A stretch of DNA of 47,686 bases from contig DVNS01000015.1 in NCBI GenBank assembly GCA_018714145.1, positions 1-47,686 of the forward strand, given 5' to 3'. The translations under genes and the position numbers were made by a program. This document shows positions 12,847 through 47,686 of the stretch, in pieces; positions within the stretch are counted from its first letter, which is position 1, and each line of letters starts with the position of its first letter. The notes below the pieces were generated by a model. That model made no database searches. It worked only from the letters and a program-made list of their open reading frames with translations, and had not been told where the DNA came from. This DNA comes from Candidatus Avilachnospira avistercoris. Lineage in GTDB: Bacteria > Bacillota > Clostridia > Lachnospirales > Lachnospiraceae.

Positions 12847-13959
12847 ATGGCTGAAAGATTAAAAGCAGCAGAAAAGACTGAGATAACGAAGCAGGATAAG
12901 GAAAAGGCCCTTGAAGCGGCCATAAAGCAGATAGAGCGTGAGTACGGACAGGGCGCCGTCATGAAGCTTGGAGACGCCTACAATAAGCTTAACATCGAGA
13001 CCATCTCCACCGGCTCCCTGAGCCTTGACATAGCCTTGGGAGTGGGCGGACTTCCGAAGGGAAGGATAGTCGAGATATATGGGCCTGAGTCCTCAGGTAA
13101 GACCACCATAGCCCTTCATGTCATAGCCGAGGCCCAGAAGCAGGGCGGCATCTGCGGCTTTATAGATGCGGAACATGCCCTTGACCCCACCTATGCAAGG
13201 AATATCGGCGTGGATATAGACAATCTTTACATCTCCCAGCCTGACAGCGGAGAGCAGGCCCTTGAGATATGTGATACCATGGTACGCTCCGGAGCTCTGG
13301 ATGTCATCATCATAGACTCAGTTGCAGCCCTCGTGCCGAAAAAGGAGATAGAGGGTGAGATGGGCGACTCAGTCGTAGGACTTCAGGCAAGGCTCATGTC
13401 TCAGGCCCTGAGGAAGCTTACGGCCCAGATATCCAAGTCCAACTGCGTGGTCATCTTCATAAACCAGCTCAGGGAGAAGGTAGGCGTGCTCTACGGCAAC
13501 CCTGAGACCACCACCGGCGGACGGGCCCTTAAGTTCTATTCCTCCATCCGTATGGAGGTCAGGAAGTCCGGCGAGAGCATAAAGCAGGGCAGTGAGTTCA
13601 TCGGAAACCATGTCAAGGTTAAGATATCGAAAAACAAGGTCGCTCCTCCGTTCAAGACTGTCGAGCTGGACATGATGTACGGAAAGGGCATATCCAGAGA
13701 GGGAGACCTCCTCGATGTGGCCGCCAAGGAAGACATCATAGAAAAGAGCGGAGCTTGGTATGCCTATAAGGGTCAGAAGATAGGTCAAGGCAGGGAAAAC
13801 GCCAAGCAGTACCTTATCGAGCATCCGGAGGTCTTTGATGAGGTGGACCATGAGCTCAGGGTCAAGTTCGGCCTCATACCCGATGAGAACGGTGAGATTA
13901 AGGACACGGCCAAGGCTGAGATAGGCTTGGCTTCCGATGATATGGCTGCTGAGGATTGA
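12847..13959 (+). CDS. recA: recombinase RecA
   Basis: GPESSGKTT Walker [46 protein letters not shown]. Confidence 0.99.
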
Positions 13960-14087
13960 TATCGCCGGATCGGTGCGAAACTATGTATAAGGCCTGTGGC
14001 ATTATATCCTTTTTACATGAGGACGGAGCTGACCGACGGCTCCCAGTATTCGGCGAACGCAGGCCACAGTATTCGCAAAGGAGCAAT

Positions 14088-14699
14088 ATGACGTATATCA
14101 TCACCTCAGTAACAGATTATGATAAAAAAAGAAAGAAGATAAGCCTTGACGACGGAAGGCTTATCTTCCTTTTATATAAGGGCGAATGGCTGAGGCTTGG
14201 CCTTAGGGAGGGAGGAGAGCTTTCGGAAGCCGGACTCTCAGATATATATGAGCATATACTTAAGCCGAGGATAAAGAAGCGTGCCCTTTACTATCTTAAG
14301 TCATCGGATAAGACCGAGCGGGAGATAAGGCGGAAGCTTCGTGAGAGCCTTTATCCTGAGGAGCTCATCGACTATGCCTTAGACTTCCTTAAGTCCTATG
14401 ACTTTGTGGATGACAGCCGCTATGCGGAAAACTTCATCAATGCCAAACGGGGCAGGGTCTCAAAGCGGGAGATGCTGCAGAAGCTCAGGCAGAAGGGAAT
14501 CTCTGCTGAGGCCTTAGAGAGCCTTAAGGAAAGCCTGACTGATGAAGATGAGCATGCTGCCGCAAAAAAGACATTTGAAAAATACGTAAGGGGCAGGGAC
14601 CTCTCGGAGCCAAAGGAGCGCCAGAGGGTCTGGCGCTATCTGGCCTCCAAGGGCTACGGGCCCGATACTATTTCAGAACTATTAAATGATAATATGTAG
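14088..14699 (+). CDS. recX: regulatory protein RecX
   Basis: Downstream of recA; RALYYLKSSDKTEREIRRKL, YDFVDDSRYAENFINAKRGRVSKREMLQKLRQKGIS; ATG 14088 with SD aaagga. Confidence 0.93.
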   Translation: MTYIITSVTDYDKKRKKISLDDGRLIFLLYKGEWLRLGLREGGELSEAGLSDIYEHILKPRIKKRALYYLKSSDKTEREIRRKLRESLYPEELIDYALDFLKSYDFVDDSRYAENFINAKRGRVSKREMLQKLRQKGISAEALESLKESLTDEDEHAAAKKTFEKYVRGRDLSEPKERQRVWRYLASKGYGPDTISELLNDNM

Positions 14700-14729: not shown

Positions 14730-14771
14730 AAGGCCCGAAGCAGCAGATCGTCCTCCTGCTTCGGGCCTTTG
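14730..14771 (+). terminator. Rho-independent terminator after recX
   Basis: AAGGCCCGAAGCAG...CTGCTTCGGGCCTTT. Confidence 0.88.
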
Positions 14772-14809
14772 ATATCCGTTTTTTCTGATAAACTCAGCTT
14801 ATCTATACT

Positions 14810-14864
14810 GCAAAGCTTCTTCCGAAGGGCCTTGTGCGAAGACAGCCCGAGGAAGAAGCTTTGC
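14810..14864. repeat. palindromic intergenic element, copy 1 (AAGACA-GC family)
   Basis: Perfect 14-bp stem GCAAAGCTTCTTCC/GGAAGAAGCTTTGC around a 27-nt loop gaagggccttgtgcgaagacagcccga. Confidence 0.8.
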
Positions 14865-14898
14865 GGATAAATATATAGCCTAAATATTCTTTGAAAAA

Positions 14899-16107
14899 TT
14901 ACGTCTGCAGGGATCTTCCTACCCTTTCCCTCACAGCCTTAAGAAAGCTCAGGGTATCGACAGCCTCTTTTTTGCAGAGGGGGCTAAGGTCGCCGGTGAC
15001 CGTGCCGGAGGCTATGGTGTCGATGCAGGCTTGCTCCAAGGCCTTGGCAAAGGCGGTTAGAGAGGGTATCTCATCCAGCTCGCCCCTCTTTGCAAGGGCT
15101 CCGGTCCACGCAAATATCATGGCCGTGGGATTGACGGAAACGGTCTCACCGGCCTTATACCTATAGTAGAGGTCAGTGATGGTGCCGTGGGCAGCCTCAT
15201 ATTCAAATTTTCCGTCGGGGCTCACCAGCACGCTTGACATCATGGCTATGCTTCCGAAGGCAGCGCTTATCAGATCGCTCATCACGTCCCCGTCGTAATT
15301 CTTGCAGGCCCATATCATACCGCCCTCTGAGCGCATGATGCCTGCGGCGGCTGAGTCTATCAGCATATATCTGTATCTGATGCCCAGACGTTCAAACTCT
15401 TTCTTATAGACATTCTCATAAAGCTCCTCAAATATATCCTTGAACCTGTGGTCGTATATCTTTGAGATGGTATCCTTAGAGGAGAACCACAGATCTTCCT
15501 TTTCGCTTATGGCATAACGGAAGCAGGAATGGGCAAAGGAGCGTATGGATTTTTCCGTATTGAACTGTCCCATAAGCACATCGCCGCTGTCAAGCTCAGC
15601 TATCCTCTGGGCAGAGACCACATTGCCTTCTTTATCTTTAAAGACAAGCTCTCCATAGCCCTTCCTGTCGGCCTTAAATTCGCTTGCCTTATAGATGTCG
15701 CCAAAGGCATGCCTTGCTATGGTGATGGGCTTTTTCCAGCAGGAGACCACCGGAGCTATATTGGGAGCTATGATGGGCCTTCTGAATACGGTGCCGTCCA
15801 GTATAGAGCGGATAGTGCCGTTGGGACTTTTCCACATATTTGAAAGGCCGTATTCCTCCACGCGCTGGGCATTGGGTGTGATGGTGGCGCACTTTACCCC
15901 TACGGAAAGACGCTTTATGGCCTCCGCAGCCTCTATGGTCACCTCGTCTCTTGTGGCTTCTCTGTTCGGAAGCCCAAGATCATAGTATTCAGTCTTAAGC
16001 TCCACAAAGGGAAGCAGGAGCTCCTCTTTTATCTGCTTCCAGACTATCCTTGTCATCTCATCGCCGTCAAGCTCTGCGATGGGGTATTTCATTCTGATGA
16101 GTTCCAT
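14899..16107 (-). CDS. icd: NADP-dependent isocitrate dehydrogenase
   Basis: ELDGDEMTRIVWKQIKEELL, NGTIRSILDGTVFRRPI, EAAHGTITDLYYRYKAGE; start placed after GGAGG, overlapping the upstream CDS by 41 bp. Confidence 0.95.
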   Translation of the reverse strand: MELIRMKYPIAELDGDEMTRIVWKQIKEELLLPFVELKTEYYDLGLPNREATRDEVTIEAAEAIKRLSVGVKCATITPNAQRVEEYGLSNMWKSPNGTIRSILDGTVFRRPIIAPNIAPVVSCWKKPITIARHAFGDIYKASEFKADRKGYGELVFKDKEGNVVSAQRIAELDSGDVLMGQFNTEKSIRSFAHSCFRYAISEKEDLWFSSKDTISKIYDHRFKDIFEELYENVYKKEFERLGIRYRYMLIDSAAAGIMRSEGGMIWACKNYDGDVMSDLISAAFGSIAMMSSVLVSPDGKFEYEAAHGTITDLYYRYKAGETVSVNPTAMIFAWTGALAKRGELDEIPSLTAFAKALEQACIDTIASGTVTGDLSPLCKKEAVDTLSFLKAVRERVGRSLQT

Positions 16108-18409
16108 CATGTCCTCCGTTCTTCTTTGCCGCATAATAGTTCATAAGGCAGCCAAGCAGAAGTATCTCCTTTTCCTCCTTGGTAAGGGGAGCGATATGGA
16201 GCAGTATCTCCGTGACCTTATGCTCAGAGACTACCTTTGCCCTTATACTTGAATCTCCGTTTTGGATATGCTCCCTGATGTCCGGCACATATATCAGATC
16301 CCCGGGCTTATAGTCAAATTCCACGTCCTTATCTATGGTAAATGGCATCATGCCCCAGTTGATACAGTTGGAACGATATCGCTTGGTGGCGAACTCATAG
16401 CAGATATTGGCGCAGCCCCCCAGTACCCTCTGACAGGAGGCTGCCTGCTCCCTTGCCGAGCCGTCGCCGGGCTTTCGGGCAAATATGACTGAGCCCATGC
16501 TGATATCCGAAAGCCTGTCCTTAAGCTCTTTGCTCAAGGCTTTTGAGTCCTGAGCAGCCTTTTCCGGGGGGCTGTCGATGAGCCCAAGAAGCGAAAGGGC
16601 CTCCATGACATGTTCGGAGGGCCTGCCCTCCTCTAAGAGCTCTGCCTCTTTCCTGATATCGGCGGTGCGGGGCACATACTCCGGATCCCTCCTTGAAAGG
16701 GCAAAGGAAGCGAGCTTAAGGGGATTGGACCTGTACGAGGAGGTCTCTCCCGAGGGAATCAGCTCGTCCGTCGTGGTGACCTCATCCTGAATGACTGAAG
16801 CCAGCTCCATGATAAGATCCTTCTTAAGCTCGGGTATGGCAGGCCATTCGGCTATGTTTGGCCCGTAGCTTAAACTCTCACCCTTCTTCGGCGAGCCAAA
16901 GCCATAGTATACACGCTTGTCATAGACTGAACCGTCAAAGCCATAGGAGGCAGGGAAGCTCGGCTCATAGTCTATGTCGGTCGCCGGTGTGAGCCTGCCG
17001 TGATTGGCTGCCGTGGCGGCTATGCTCCTTGCGTCCATCAGCATGACGGCGCTGAGCTGTCCGTCTCCGGGACGGGAGCCCTCTCTGTTGGGGAAGTTCC
17101 TCGTGGTATGCCTGATGGATAGGGCATTGTTTGCGGGCACGTCTCCGGCTCCGAAGCAGGGACCGCAGAAGCAGGGCTTGAACACGGCTCCGGCCTCGGT
17201 AAGCTTTGTCATGATGCCGTTTTTGATGAGCTCAAGGTTCACCGGCATGCTGGGGGGATATATGGAGAGGCTGAAGGCACCGCTGCCTATATCCCGCCCT
17301 TTAAGTATGGAGGCAGCCTCAGCAATATTTTCATACATACCGCCGGCGCAGCCTGCGATGATACCCTGATCTATGTAAATGTGTCCGTCCCTTATCTTAT
17401 CCGTAAGCTTAAGGCTTACCTTGTCTCCAAACTGCTCAGAGGCTCTTTTTTCAGTCTCTCTGAGTATATCTGCTCCATCCTCCATAAGTTCCCTGATGGT
17501 ATAGGCTTCCGAGGGATGGAAGGGCAGGGCTGCCATGGGCTCCATGGAGGAGAGATCTATCTCTATCATTGCATCATAATAGGCTCCATCCTCAGGCTTA
17601 AGCTCCTTATAGGCCTCCGCTCTGCCGTGGATAGAAAGATATTCTTCAACCCTTTCATCGGTCTCCCATATGGAGGACAGGCAGGCTGTTTCGGTAGTCA
17701 TGACATCTATGCCTATACGGAAGTCCATGGACAGGTCCTTGATGCCGGGACCGCAGAATTCAAGTATGCTGTTTTTTACGAAGCCATTTTTATAGACTGC
17801 ACCGCAGAGGGCTATGGCCACGTCATGGGGGCCCACGCCCCGTTTGGGCTTTCCGCTCAGCCATACCAGCACCACTCTGGGAGCAGGGATGTCGTAGGTA
17901 TTTTCAAGGAGCTGCTTTACCAGCTCGGGCCCTCCCTCGCCTATGCCGAGAGTACCGAGGGCTCCGTATCTTGTGTGGCTGTCAGAGCCGAGTATCATGC
18001 GTCCGCAGCCCGCCATCATCTCCCTTGCATACTGGTGGATGACTGCCTGATTGGCAGGAACATATATGCCGCCGTATTTTACCGCAGCAGAGAGCCCGAA
18101 CACATGGTCGTCCTCATTGATGGTGCCGCCTACGGCACAAAGGCTGTTGTGGCAGTTGGTAAGCACATAGGGCACTGGAAATTCCGTAAGTCCGCTGGCC
18201 TTGGCTGTCTGTATGATGCCCACATAAGTTATGTCGTGGGATATGAGGCTGTCAAAGCTGATGCGAAGGCTGTCATCCCCCGGGCCCTTATCATGGGCAC
18301 GGAGTATCTGATAGGCCATGGTATGCTCCCTTGCCTTTATATCCGGGGCCGGAGCCTTTTCGGGCTTCCCGTTTTTTAGGTAAACGCCATTATCATTGAG
18401 CTTAAGCAT
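16067..18409 (-). CDS. aconitase-family hydratase
   Basis: GSDSHTRYGALGTLGIGEGGPELV, FCGPCFGAGD, GCANICYEFATKRYRSNCINWGMMPF (aconitase and swivel domains); SD aggggaa. Confidence 0.93.
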   Translation of the reverse strand: MLKLNDNGVYLKNGKPEKAPAPDIKAREHTMAYQILRAHDKGPGDDSLRISFDSLISHDITYVGIIQTAKASGLTEFPVPYVLTNCHNSLCAVGGTINEDDHVFGLSAAVKYGGIYVPANQAVIHQYAREMMAGCGRMILGSDSHTRYGALGTLGIGEGGPELVKQLLENTYDIPAPRVVLVWLSGKPKRGVGPHDVAIALCGAVYKNGFVKNSILEFCGPGIKDLSMDFRIGIDVMTTETACLSSIWETDERVEEYLSIHGRAEAYKELKPEDGAYYDAMIEIDLSSMEPMAALPFHPSEAYTIRELMEDGADILRETEKRASEQFGDKVSLKLTDKIRDGHIYIDQGIIAGCAGGMYENIAEAASILKGRDIGSGAFSLSIYPPSMPVNLELIKNGIMTKLTEAGAVFKPCFCGPCFGAGDVPANNALSIRHTTRNFPNREGSRPGDGQLSAVMLMDARSIAATAANHGRLTPATDIDYEPSFPASYGFDGSVYDKRVYYGFGSPKKGESLSYGPNIAEWPAIPELKKDLIMELASVIQDEVTTTDELIPSGETSSYRSNPLKLASFALSRRDPEYVPRTADIRKEAELLEEGRPSEHVMEALSLLGLIDSPPEKAAQDSKALSKELKDRLSDISMGSVIFARKPGDGSAREQAASCQRVLGGCANICYEFATKRYRSNCINWGMMPFTIDKDVEFDYKPGDLIYVPDIREHIQNGDSSIRAKVVSEHKVTEILLHIAPLTKEEKEILLLGCLMNYYAAKKNGGHDGTHQNEIPHRRA

Positions 18410-18576
18410 CGTGTTCCCCTTTCGCTGATAAAGTCATATAGATATGCAACAGTATACTTTTTTTTAGTCTGCACTTCAATCATTTAACGTATAAAAATGA
18501 AAGGCCTTGAAAAATTGGCCCTAAAAGATTAGTATAAGGATAAAATCTTTGGAAGGAACCGGAAAGGAGCACTGAT

Positions 18577-19935
18577 ATGACAGCTGAATACGCAAAGGAA
18601 TACATGGTTCGTCTCAGCGAGGAGATGAAGGGACAGTATGTTATAAACCCGAGATATCTTAATGATGTCAATCTTAAAAGGGGACTTAGGAATGCTGACG
18701 GTACCGGAGTGCTGGTGGGCGTCACCGGCATAGGAAGCGTTCAGGGTTATTATGTAGAGGACGGCGTCAGGGTGCCCCAAGAAGGAAGACTTTACTACAG
18801 AGGCATCAGTATGGAGGACATAGTTGAGGCCCACAGAAAGAGCGACACCTTTGGCTTTGAGGAGGTAGTCTATCTTCTGGTGGTAGGAAAGCTTCCTACC
18901 AAGGCTCAGCTTGAGGAATTCAATGAGATGCTGGCTGCGGCAAGGGACCTGCCCAAGGGCTTTTATGAGGACATGATACTAAAGATACCCAGCCGCAATG
19001 TCATGAACAAGCTGGCAAGATGCGTGCTGGCCCTATACTCATATGATGAGGACCCGGACGACACCTCCCTTCAGAACATGGTAAAGCAGTCCATAGCTCT
19101 GATAGCGAGATTTCCGACCATAGTGGCTCAGGCCTATGCTACCAAGAGGCATCACTTTGATGGAAAGTCCCTTTACATACATAATCCGAAGTCGGAGCTT
19201 TCAGTATCGGAAAATTTCCTTCGCATGATAAGGGCTGATAAGAGCTTTACGCATAATGAGGCCCTGCTCCTTGACCTTATGCTCATGATACAGGCCGAGC
19301 ACGGCGGCGGCAATAACTCTGCCTTTGTGTGCCGTGCCCTGTCTTCCACCATGACTGATACCTACAGCGCCATAGCCGGAGCCATAGGATCCCTTAAGGG
19401 GCCCCTTCACGGAGGTGCCAACAGTAAGGTCATGGAGATGTTTGGCTATATCGAGGAAAATGTCAAGGACTGGAAGGATGACGAGGCGGTGAAGGACTAC
19501 CTCAGGAGGATAGTAAGGAAGGAAGCCGGAGACCGCTCCGGCAAGATATACGGCCTCGGCCATGCGGTCTATACCGTATCTGACCCGAGGGCTAAGCTCA
19601 TCAGGAAATATGCCGTGGATGTTGCCAAGGAAAAGGGCTATATGGAGGAGCTGGAGCTCCTTGAAAAGGTAGAAGAATTTGGCGTGCCCATCCTGATGGA
19701 GGAAAAGCAGATGGATATGCCCATCTGTGCCAATGTAGACCTCTACAGCGGACTCATCTATAAGATGCTGGGGATCCCGGAGGAGCTCTGTACGCCGCTG
19801 TTTGCAGTGGCAAGGATATCCGGCTGGTGCGCCCACCGCATCGAAGAGGTCATGACCGGAGGCCGTCTCATGCGTCCCGCATACAGGGCCAGCATGATAA
19901 GAGTGCCTTATATAGACATAGAAAACAGAAAATAA
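18577..19935 (+). CDS. gltA: citrate synthase
   Basis: LYYRGISMEDIVE, EHGGGNNSAFVCRALSSTMTDTYSAIAGAIGSLKGPLHGGAN, GLGHAVYTVSDPRA. Confidence 0.96.
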   Translation: MTAEYAKEYMVRLSEEMKGQYVINPRYLNDVNLKRGLRNADGTGVLVGVTGIGSVQGYYVEDGVRVPQEGRLYYRGISMEDIVEAHRKSDTFGFEEVVYLLVVGKLPTKAQLEEFNEMLAAARDLPKGFYEDMILKIPSRNVMNKLARCVLALYSYDEDPDDTSLQNMVKQSIALIARFPTIVAQAYATKRHHFDGKSLYIHNPKSELSVSENFLRMIRADKSFTHNEALLLDLMLMIQAEHGGGNNSAFVCRALSSTMTDTYSAIAGAIGSLKGPLHGGANSKVMEMFGYIEENVKDWKDDEAVKDYLRRIVRKEAGDRSGKIYGLGHAVYTVSDPRAKLIRKYAVDVAKEKGYMEELELLEKVEEFGVPILMEEKQMDMPICANVDLYSGLIYKMLGIPEELCTPLFAVARISGWCAHRIEEVMTGGRLMRPAYRASMIRVPYIDIENRK

Positions 19936-20980: not shown

Positions 20981-21057
20981 GTCTGCAGATCCTGCAAAGC
21001 TTCTGCCGAGAGGTCCTGCGCAAAGACAGCCGGAGGCAGAATCTTTAGCAGGCAGAC
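20981..21057. repeat. palindromic intergenic element, copy 2 (AAGACA-GC family)
   Basis: GTCTG..CCTGC.AAAG.TTCTGCC paired with GGCAGAA.CTTT.GCAGG.CAGAC; 27-nt loop gagaggtcctgcgcaaagacagccgga, 20/27 identical to copy 1. Confidence 0.75.
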
Positions 21058-21111: not shown

Positions 21112-22044
21112 ATGAAGAATCTTTTATATATTTGCAATCCGGTCTCGGGAAGGGGCAGGGCCAAGGAACGGCTCTCGGATATCATAAGCTTTTATAACGA
21201 CCTTGGCTTTGCTCCAAGGGTGGTCATGACCGCCCCTCACCGGGACATAACAGGGGAGATAGCAGAGCTTTCAGATGACGACTTCCTTGTGTGCTCCGGC
21301 GGAGACGGCATGGTAAATCTGATGATAGAAACCATGGCCAAGCTTGGAAGGGATATACCCATTGGATATATCCCCATGGGCACGACCAATGATTTTTCAA
21401 AGAGCATCGGACTCCCCAAGGAGCTTGAGGCACTGCTTAAGGCCTCGGTTTCCGAGCATAAGCTCAGGCTGGATGCCGGAGAGCTTATGGGGAGACGCTT
21501 TGCCTATGTGGCAGGCTTCGGCAACTTTACCGACATATCCTATAAGACTCCGAGGGTGACGAAAAACCTCCTTGGTTACTTGGCCTATGTGCTTGAAGGG
21601 GCCAAGTCCATATCGGATATCAGGCCCTTCCATGTGAGGGTCAGCGTGGGTGATGAGCTGCTGGAGGCGGATTATATACTCGGGCTTGTGACCAATTCCA
21701 CATCAGTGGCCGGAGTCAGGCCCTTGGGAGGCTTTGAGACGAAGCTTGATGACGGGCTCATGGAGCTGGTGCTCATAAAGATGCCTAAGAAGCTTTCCGA
21801 GCTGAGGGAGATACTTGGCTCCTATCTTAGTCAGGAGCAGGGCTCAGAGCTCATAGAATACAGGCAGGGCAGAAGCTTCAGCTTTGAATCGCCGAAGCTT
21901 GCCTGGACCCTTGACGGGGAGTTCGGAGGCTGCTATGACAGGACAGATATAAGAGTCATTCCTTCGGCATTTTCAGTGAGGGTGCCGGAGCCTGACGTAA
22001 AGTCCGGAGGATATAAACAAAAAGGGGGAGAAATACATGCTTAA
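21112..22044 (+). CDS. diacylglycerol kinase/YegS-like lipid kinase
   Basis: NPVSGRGRAKE, CSGGDGMVNLMIE, PMGTTNDFSKSIGLP. Confidence 0.93.
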   Translation: MKNLLYICNPVSGRGRAKERLSDIISFYNDLGFAPRVVMTAPHRDITGEIAELSDDDFLVCSGGDGMVNLMIETMAKLGRDIPIGYIPMGTTNDFSKSIGLPKELEALLKASVSEHKLRLDAGELMGRRFAYVAGFGNFTDISYKTPRVTKNLLGYLAYVLEGAKSISDIRPFHVRVSVGDELLEADYILGLVTNSTSVAGVRPLGGFETKLDDGLMELVLIKMPKKLSELREILGSYLSQEQGSELIEYRQGRSFSFESPKLAWTLDGEFGGCYDRTDIRVIPSAFSVRVPEPDVKSGGYKQKGGEIHA

Positions 22045-27320: not shown

Positions 27321-27327
27321 TAAATCT

Positions 27328-27543
27328 CACGCAGCCGGGGAGATAGCGGTGCCCTGTATCTGAGATCCGCTTTAGCAGAGGTGATACCCTGCCGAGGGCG
27401 GTATATCGCATGGCAGTTCTTTCTTAGGGACGTTGAAGCCGGGGTCCTGCGCAATAGAAATTTGTGAACCGTGTCAGGGCAGGAATGCAGCAGCACTAAG
27501 CAAAACCTTCTATGTGCCGTGGGAGTGCCTCTGCCGAGTTTTT
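27328..27543 (+). ncRNA. ffs: signal recognition particle RNA, large Gram-positive type with Alu domain
   Basis: Alu-domain-like GGGGAGATAGCGGTGCCCTGTATCTGAGATCCGCTTTAGCAGAGG; S-domain signature GAACCGTGTCAGGGCAGGAATGCAGCAGCACTAAG; 3' end followed by ttttt. Ends approximate. Confidence 0.92.
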
Positions 27544-27623
27544 GAAGCAAGGAAACGCATGTCTTATATCGTTCGAAGCAGGGTGCGTGATTTTTTATTG
27601 TATTGATTTATAAAGGAGCAGAA

Positions 27624-47550: not shown

Positions 47551-47589
47551 TATAAAGGGGCAGTAAATCCACTTTCATTGTGTGATTAC

Positions 47590-47621
47590 GCATTGCTTCG
47601 TGCTGCGCCCTCCCGCAATGC
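47590..47621. other. intergenic hairpin
   Basis: GCATTG ... CAATGC downstream of the LCP gene. Confidence 0.4.
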
Positions 47622-47686
47622 TGCAGTCATTCGGATTTCACCCTATCGGGCTACATTCTCATGCCTGCAAGTGTTATAAATTCACT

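Follow-up and report, generated by a model that had tools for sequence, protein, structure and literature searches.

What is the hairpin that lies between the convergent genes recX and icd, and what keeps it paired? Our analysis of the window, by which we mean the whole stretch of 47,686 nucleotides from Candidatus Avilachnospira avistercoris, confirms that its two arms, GCAAAGCTTCTTCC and GGAAGAAGCTTTGC, are 100% complementary over 14 bp with 27 nt in between, as the first-pass annotation of this DNA had described. The fold reaches -38.2 kcal/mol, compared with -16.5 +/- 2.9 kcal/mol in dinucleotide shuffles (z = -7.5). The second version that had been claimed alongside it is also there: copy 2 agrees with copy 1 in loop length (27 nt) and in 20/27 loop positions as counted by eye, and it has the compensatory stem change ascribed to it, on a stem that a C.T mismatch and a bulged A make less perfect than that of copy 1. 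Copy 2 sits in a divergent spacer, flanked by a radical-SAM gene and a diacylglycerol-kinase-like gene (Table 1). In the surroundings of copy 1, the genes for isocitrate dehydrogenase, aconitase and citrate synthase stand together (14899-19935) as the oxidative branch of a partial TCA cycle, and elsewhere the window has Rfam matches to a Clostridiales-1 RNA at its very end (47581-47686, minus strand) and to a large bacterial SRP RNA (27327-27590, plus strand).

Table 1. Positions in the window of the two hairpin copies, the parts of copy 1 and the neighbouring features.
Feature	Position	Strand	Evidence
Copy 1, 62-nt hairpin repeat unit, recX/icd convergent spacer	14807..14868	+	R1 E=7.2e-19, 76.9 bits; R2 65.6 bits; fold z -7.5
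Copy 1, 5' stem arm	14810..14823	+	inverted repeat I10, 100% complementary
Copy 1, 3' stem arm	14851..14864	+	inverted repeat I10
Copy 1, 27-nt inner part: internal loop, GGGC/GCCC stem II, tip (variant of TTGC-GAA-GCAG)	14824..14850	+	sequence; alignments A2, A4
Copy 2, repeat unit in a divergent spacer (59 nt upstream of the gene at 21112)	20991..21052	+	R1 E=6.9e-20, 80.4 bits
recX, left neighbour of copy 1	13956..14699	+	Pfam RecX_HTH1/2/3
icd, isocitrate dehydrogenase-like, right neighbour of copy 1	14899..16134	-	Pfam Iso_dh 1.6e-53
Terminator-like strong GC-rich hairpin right after recX, outside the repeat family	14733..14776	+	inverted repeat I1; AAGGCCCGAAGCAG...CTGCTTCGGGCCTTT read directly

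How many such hairpins are there? A BLASTN search with copy 1 finds six strong copies, itself included, in the window's own genome (G000; assembly of 1.57 Mb, 87% complete). A covariance model built from 7 sequences (R1) raises this to about 35 copies and reveals a second genome of the same genus (G009; 90% complete), and a model refined on 37 sequences (R2) returns 54 rows in each of the two, both strands being counted; the best E-values in G000 go down to 1e-21. The loci that we fetched comprise 85 places, and the 81 sequences among them that are distinct divide into 39 of G000 and 42 of G009, so that the window carries 2 of about 40 copies in its genome and the congener has about as many. 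A degenerate half-site pattern finds 33 places in the two genomes together, against 0 for a reversed control pattern, and because of this contrast and the roughly 40 genome-wide matches the similarity of copies 1 and 2 cannot be put down to chance. The covariance-model search proposed by the first-pass annotation thus led to further copies in number, all of them intergenic, in a family that keeps its pairing. None of the 81 overlaps a predicted gene, where genes were called with a home-made codon-usage caller and 12% of the 635 kb is intergenic. The copies are of common descent and are dispersed over two related species.

The repeat unit is about 62 nt long, with the consensus YCTG(t)CAAAACTTCTGCC-GAA-GGAC-A-TYGC-RAA-GCRG-CA-GTCC-GA-GGCAGAAGTTTTGCAGR in both species. 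Stem I has 12 bp with nearly invariant AAA/TTT feet, outward of which an outer stem of about 4 pairs follows, often with a one-base bulge on one side or the other; inward, an internal loop leads to stem II (GGAC/GTCC), and at the tip four pairs, among them a T.G present in 64/80 copies, close a GAA/AAA loop. The motif AAGACA-GC, which had been put forward as the signature of the family, turns out to be only a tip variant of the conserved inner consensus GGAC-A-TYGC-RAA-GCRG-CA-GTCC. Irregularities recur at fixed places, namely the GAA/GAG loop and, in stem I, a penultimate pair that is G.A or G.G, and the A-tract and T-tract feet are among the least variable pairs. Many tips contain GCGAAGC, known elsewhere as an unusually stable DNA mini-hairpin. 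Conservation drops to background 5 nt outside the feet, hence the unit is a discrete one.

Pairing in the stems is kept through compensatory changes. In a plain MAFFT alignment of 37 sequences drawn from the R1 searches, with one strand per copy (A4), we count 73 double-change cells, compared with 24.6 +/- 6.1 after shuffling; in an alignment of 100 rows (A5) we count 204, compared with 59 +/- 10, with the proviso that A5 was fitted to the covariance model and reads some copies on both strands, so that its counts lean towards structure. The signal is destroyed when the partners are slid by 1-3 columns. The largest covarying switches are TA/GC, TA/CG, CG/TA and AT/GC, at several stem positions. 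Among 30 disjoint pairs of closest copies, stem I has 16 double changes (5.7 expected) and 58 single ones, and stems II-III have 15 (4.6 expected) and 36. Double changes between the closest copies are thus about three times as frequent as expected for independent changes, yet single changes are commoner, and this combination fits a set of master elements that keep their fold together with copies that drift.

Could paired changes arise with no structural selection at all, by template switching during replication that corrects imperfect palindromes in otherwise neutral copies? Such a mechanism has been documented for hairpins (PMC8794818), and it is compatible with the symmetric mismatch counts given below. 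However, correction would have removed the internal loops and mismatches, which are found time and again at fixed positions, and the sequences of tip and feet are conserved over 81 copies. We therefore regard this account as very unlikely as a whole; template switching could contribute to the paired changes, but it leaves the conserved mismatches and the tip unexplained.

The position of the copies relative to genes is uneven. For the 69 copies with both neighbours known, 40 spacers are tandem, 20 convergent and 9 divergent, whereas spacers of at least 70 bp would give 54.6, 6.5 and 8.0 (p about 1e-7), an enrichment of about 3-fold for convergent spacers that is approximate, since the spacer background comes from stretches picked for holding copies. 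Copies in tandem spacers have the upstream stop at a median distance of 50 nt and the following start at one of 104 nt, and they point with the genes in 27 cases and against them in 13 (p = 0.04). The flanking genes are ordinary, varied and unrelated to one another; among 132 of them, the 25 commonest families include no recurrent or transposase family. The elements do not stand out as rearrangement breakpoints either, with synteny breaks at 2/7 element spacers and 11/35 others.

Is the hairpin then kept as DNA or as RNA? Stem I has 39 GT and 31 AC mismatches, and stem II has 23 and 18. Because G-T does not outnumber A-C, one selected RNA strand is argued against for the main stem, and this parity is if anything conservative, as the covariance model prefers wobbles when it picks an orientation. 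In the tip stem, 80 GT mismatches face 12 AC, most of them being the one conserved T.G pair. The counts point to a main stem that is a palindrome selected at the DNA level, or one in symmetric drift, with a strand-specific tip; on the other hand, the conservation of the tip and its strand asymmetry would also suit a folded RNA, and the 27:13 orientation bias leaves room for an RNA effect.

It is this room that an RNA account would occupy, in which the repeats act mainly as mRNA 3'-end hairpins, either stabilisers or bidirectional intrinsic terminators, selected on the transcript. The enrichment in convergent spacers, the short distance past stop codons, the orientation bias, the nearly fixed A-tract and T-tract feet and the T.G pair in the tip all agree with it, and the symmetry of A-tract, stem and T-tract is indeed that of bidirectional terminators. 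We nevertheless consider it unlikely. The T-tract has just 4 nt and is followed by a paired GCAG, so that it lies within a longer stem, and the 27-nt structured inner part has a common sequence, whose shared tip a need for termination would not account for; nine copies lie in divergent spacers; and the GT/AC parity speaks against it. At copy 1 itself a terminator pattern scan makes no call, and the separate terminator-like hairpin upstream of it suggests that recX can do without copy 1 as its terminator. The small structured RNA suggested by the first-pass annotation is weakly supported, with the strand asymmetry of the tip in its favour and, against it, the mismatch parity, the presence of copies in all gene contexts and in both orientations, and Rfam, which gives no match at the gathering score at the window copies and, for three element loci searched at E<=1, no credible one.

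The family is sharply bounded. In the other 23 genomes of the genus, the search at E<=0.01 gives a single weak, divergent match, in G007 (E = 0.008), and a family-wide draw of 299 genomes, G000 included, adds nothing beyond G000 itself at E<=1e-4. When 271 kb of G007 are scanned directly, only this copy turns up, and there is no copy in 200 kb of G019 or in 121 kb of G003; the density in G000 and G009 is 5.8 and 8.7 copies per 100 kb, figures inflated by stretches picked for holding copies. The lone copy in G007 (L087, G007:C6:7591-7649) keeps the tip almost exactly (GGACAGCGCGAAGCGGCAGTCC), on stem arms that are entirely different and still palindromic. In a ClpC tree G000, G009, G003, G007 and G019 form one clade (100/100), within which the sister pairing of G000 and G009 is weakly supported (72/60), and genome-wide G003, G007 and G019 have no confident copy. 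A single origin or amplification in the G000/G009 lineage fits this distribution without being proved by it. Across about 85,000 species genomes the tip pattern has 63 matches, of the order expected by chance (about 30 by our own estimate with each base at 25%); the best of them, L138 in Bacteroidaceae, sits inside a long open frame, and we rejected a wider spread.

We propose, with a probability of roughly 0.6, that the hairpin belongs to a lineage-specific family of REP-like intergenic repeats, non-autonomous and built as multi-part hairpins of 62 nt, which spread as DNA hairpins. Copies would arise by duplication of a master element, whose folded DNA hairpin, extruded or single-stranded, would be recognised by a trans-acting enzyme via the tip, the internal loops and the feet. 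Because the enzyme would recognise the folded hairpin, masters would keep their fold while dead copies would drift. Survivors would build up where insertion harms least, directly behind genes and most of all in convergent spacers, and there the hairpin may secondarily serve as a weak bidirectional 3'-end element. While the dispersal as a DNA hairpin is something that we infer, the family itself is real, restricted to its lineage, of a known general kind and apparently undescribed.

How far does the likeness to REP elements go? REPs are intergenic, lie in tandem and convergent spacers near the 3' ends of genes, are patchy between related species and have conserved stem irregularities (PMC3733652, PMC8266576), and some are paired in inverted orientation as REPINs (PMC3116915). 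Our repeat resembles the REP, BIME and REPIN systems with their RAYT (TnpA-REP) enzymes in being a dispersed, sometimes paired intergenic hairpin with a patchy species range, a preference for 3' ends and convergent spacers, and conserved stem mismatches. It differs from them in its length (62 nt as against 20-50 nt), in a stem sequence that varies strongly by compensation, in the unpaired GTAG/CGTC tag at the feet that marks REP super-families, found here in 0/80 copies, and in its mostly single copies, for only 7 close pairs occur among the 81 and 3 of the 7 are inverted. Hence the REP-like element of the first-pass annotation stands as a dispersed, structure-keeping family, and in the broad sense of REP-like palindromes, with 81 distinct copies, none of them in predicted genes, and tandem and convergent spacers preferred over divergent ones. 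It does not stand as a REP in the strict sense, with tag and Y1/RAYT transposase; the repeat works like a REP-type repeat and, by the features tested, is not a REP.

The REP enzyme was looked for in 31 genomes, which comprise congeners and other families of the order. PF01797 (Y1/RAYT) matches in 16 of these, and in 5 of 14 controls, but neither in G000 nor in G009; since both assemblies are incomplete, the gene could be missing from the data. A search for Y2 transposase gave no match, with a control that was silent too, and is uninformative. For the integron integrase IntI (TIGR02249) there is only a partial tyrosine-recombinase match below the cutoff. Integron attC sites are similar in a general sense, being single strands folded into hairpins that have extrahelical bases and a tip that varies, but the feet here are without RYYYAAC/GTTRRRY boxes (the 3' foot reads GTTTTGC) and the copies are not arranged as cassette arrays. 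ERIC, RU-1, RU-2 and others are likewise intergenic repeats that form imperfect palindromes and for which no transposase of their own is recognised; ERIC-type elements, which we presume to be unrelated in sequence, are about twice as long and belong to enterobacteria rather than to a Clostridia lineage.

At the borders of the copies we see no convincing target-site duplications or flank motifs, and an alignment of G000 and G009 spacers gives no clean empty site, the spacers being too diverged. This bears on whether the unit might be a MITE-type derivative of a DDE insertion sequence, with its arms as the terminal inverted repeats of a full-length element. A short, multi-copy, non-coding unit with inverted repeats is what one would look for, but a target-site duplication is missing, the half-site pattern turns up no isolated arms beyond the recognised copies save for a few chance-like matches with 2 mismatches, and the arms vary by compensation rather than being fixed. 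We judge this origin highly improbable.

Returning to a REP-like repeat that spreads as a DNA hairpin, a more specific and quite unlikely version of it is that the repeat is the substrate of an undescribed system that mobilises single-stranded DNA in a Lachnospiraceae-type Clostridia lineage, without a Y1/RAYT transposase and with recognition based on shape. If shape is indeed recognised, through a tip hairpin with GCGAAGC, the internal loops and the A/T feet, then the sequence of the stem would be free to change. More generally, REP-type repeats have been described mainly from Proteobacteria with a known transposase, and on a sharply bounded Clostridia family with strong compensatory evolution and no visible transposase one could test how repeats of this sort spread, and whether selection keeps the pairing at the DNA or the RNA level. 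The contrast in copies, about 40 each in G000 and G009 and no more than a single weak one among their clade mates, would make gain and loss measurable once strains are sequenced.

A few loci are common to both species. The pair L040/L059 is a nearly identical element with flanks that are 83% identical, and because of such loci some insertions may be older than the G000/G009 split, or may have been homogenised. Most shared DNA of the two genomes is about 70-86% identical; four pairs of segments of 1.4-2.2 kb (L064/L058, L314/L387, L316/L312 and L380/L300) are 97-99% identical, which reflects either a transfer of recent date or contigs that were assigned to both draft assemblies. Finally, other hairpins, without the family tip, lie in the same spacers as copies, at about 4490-4560 of L384 (AAGCTGCCG...CGGCAGCTT) and about 5890-5935 of L390 (CTTTGATATC...GATATCAAAG), so that G000 and G009 may hold further palindrome families.
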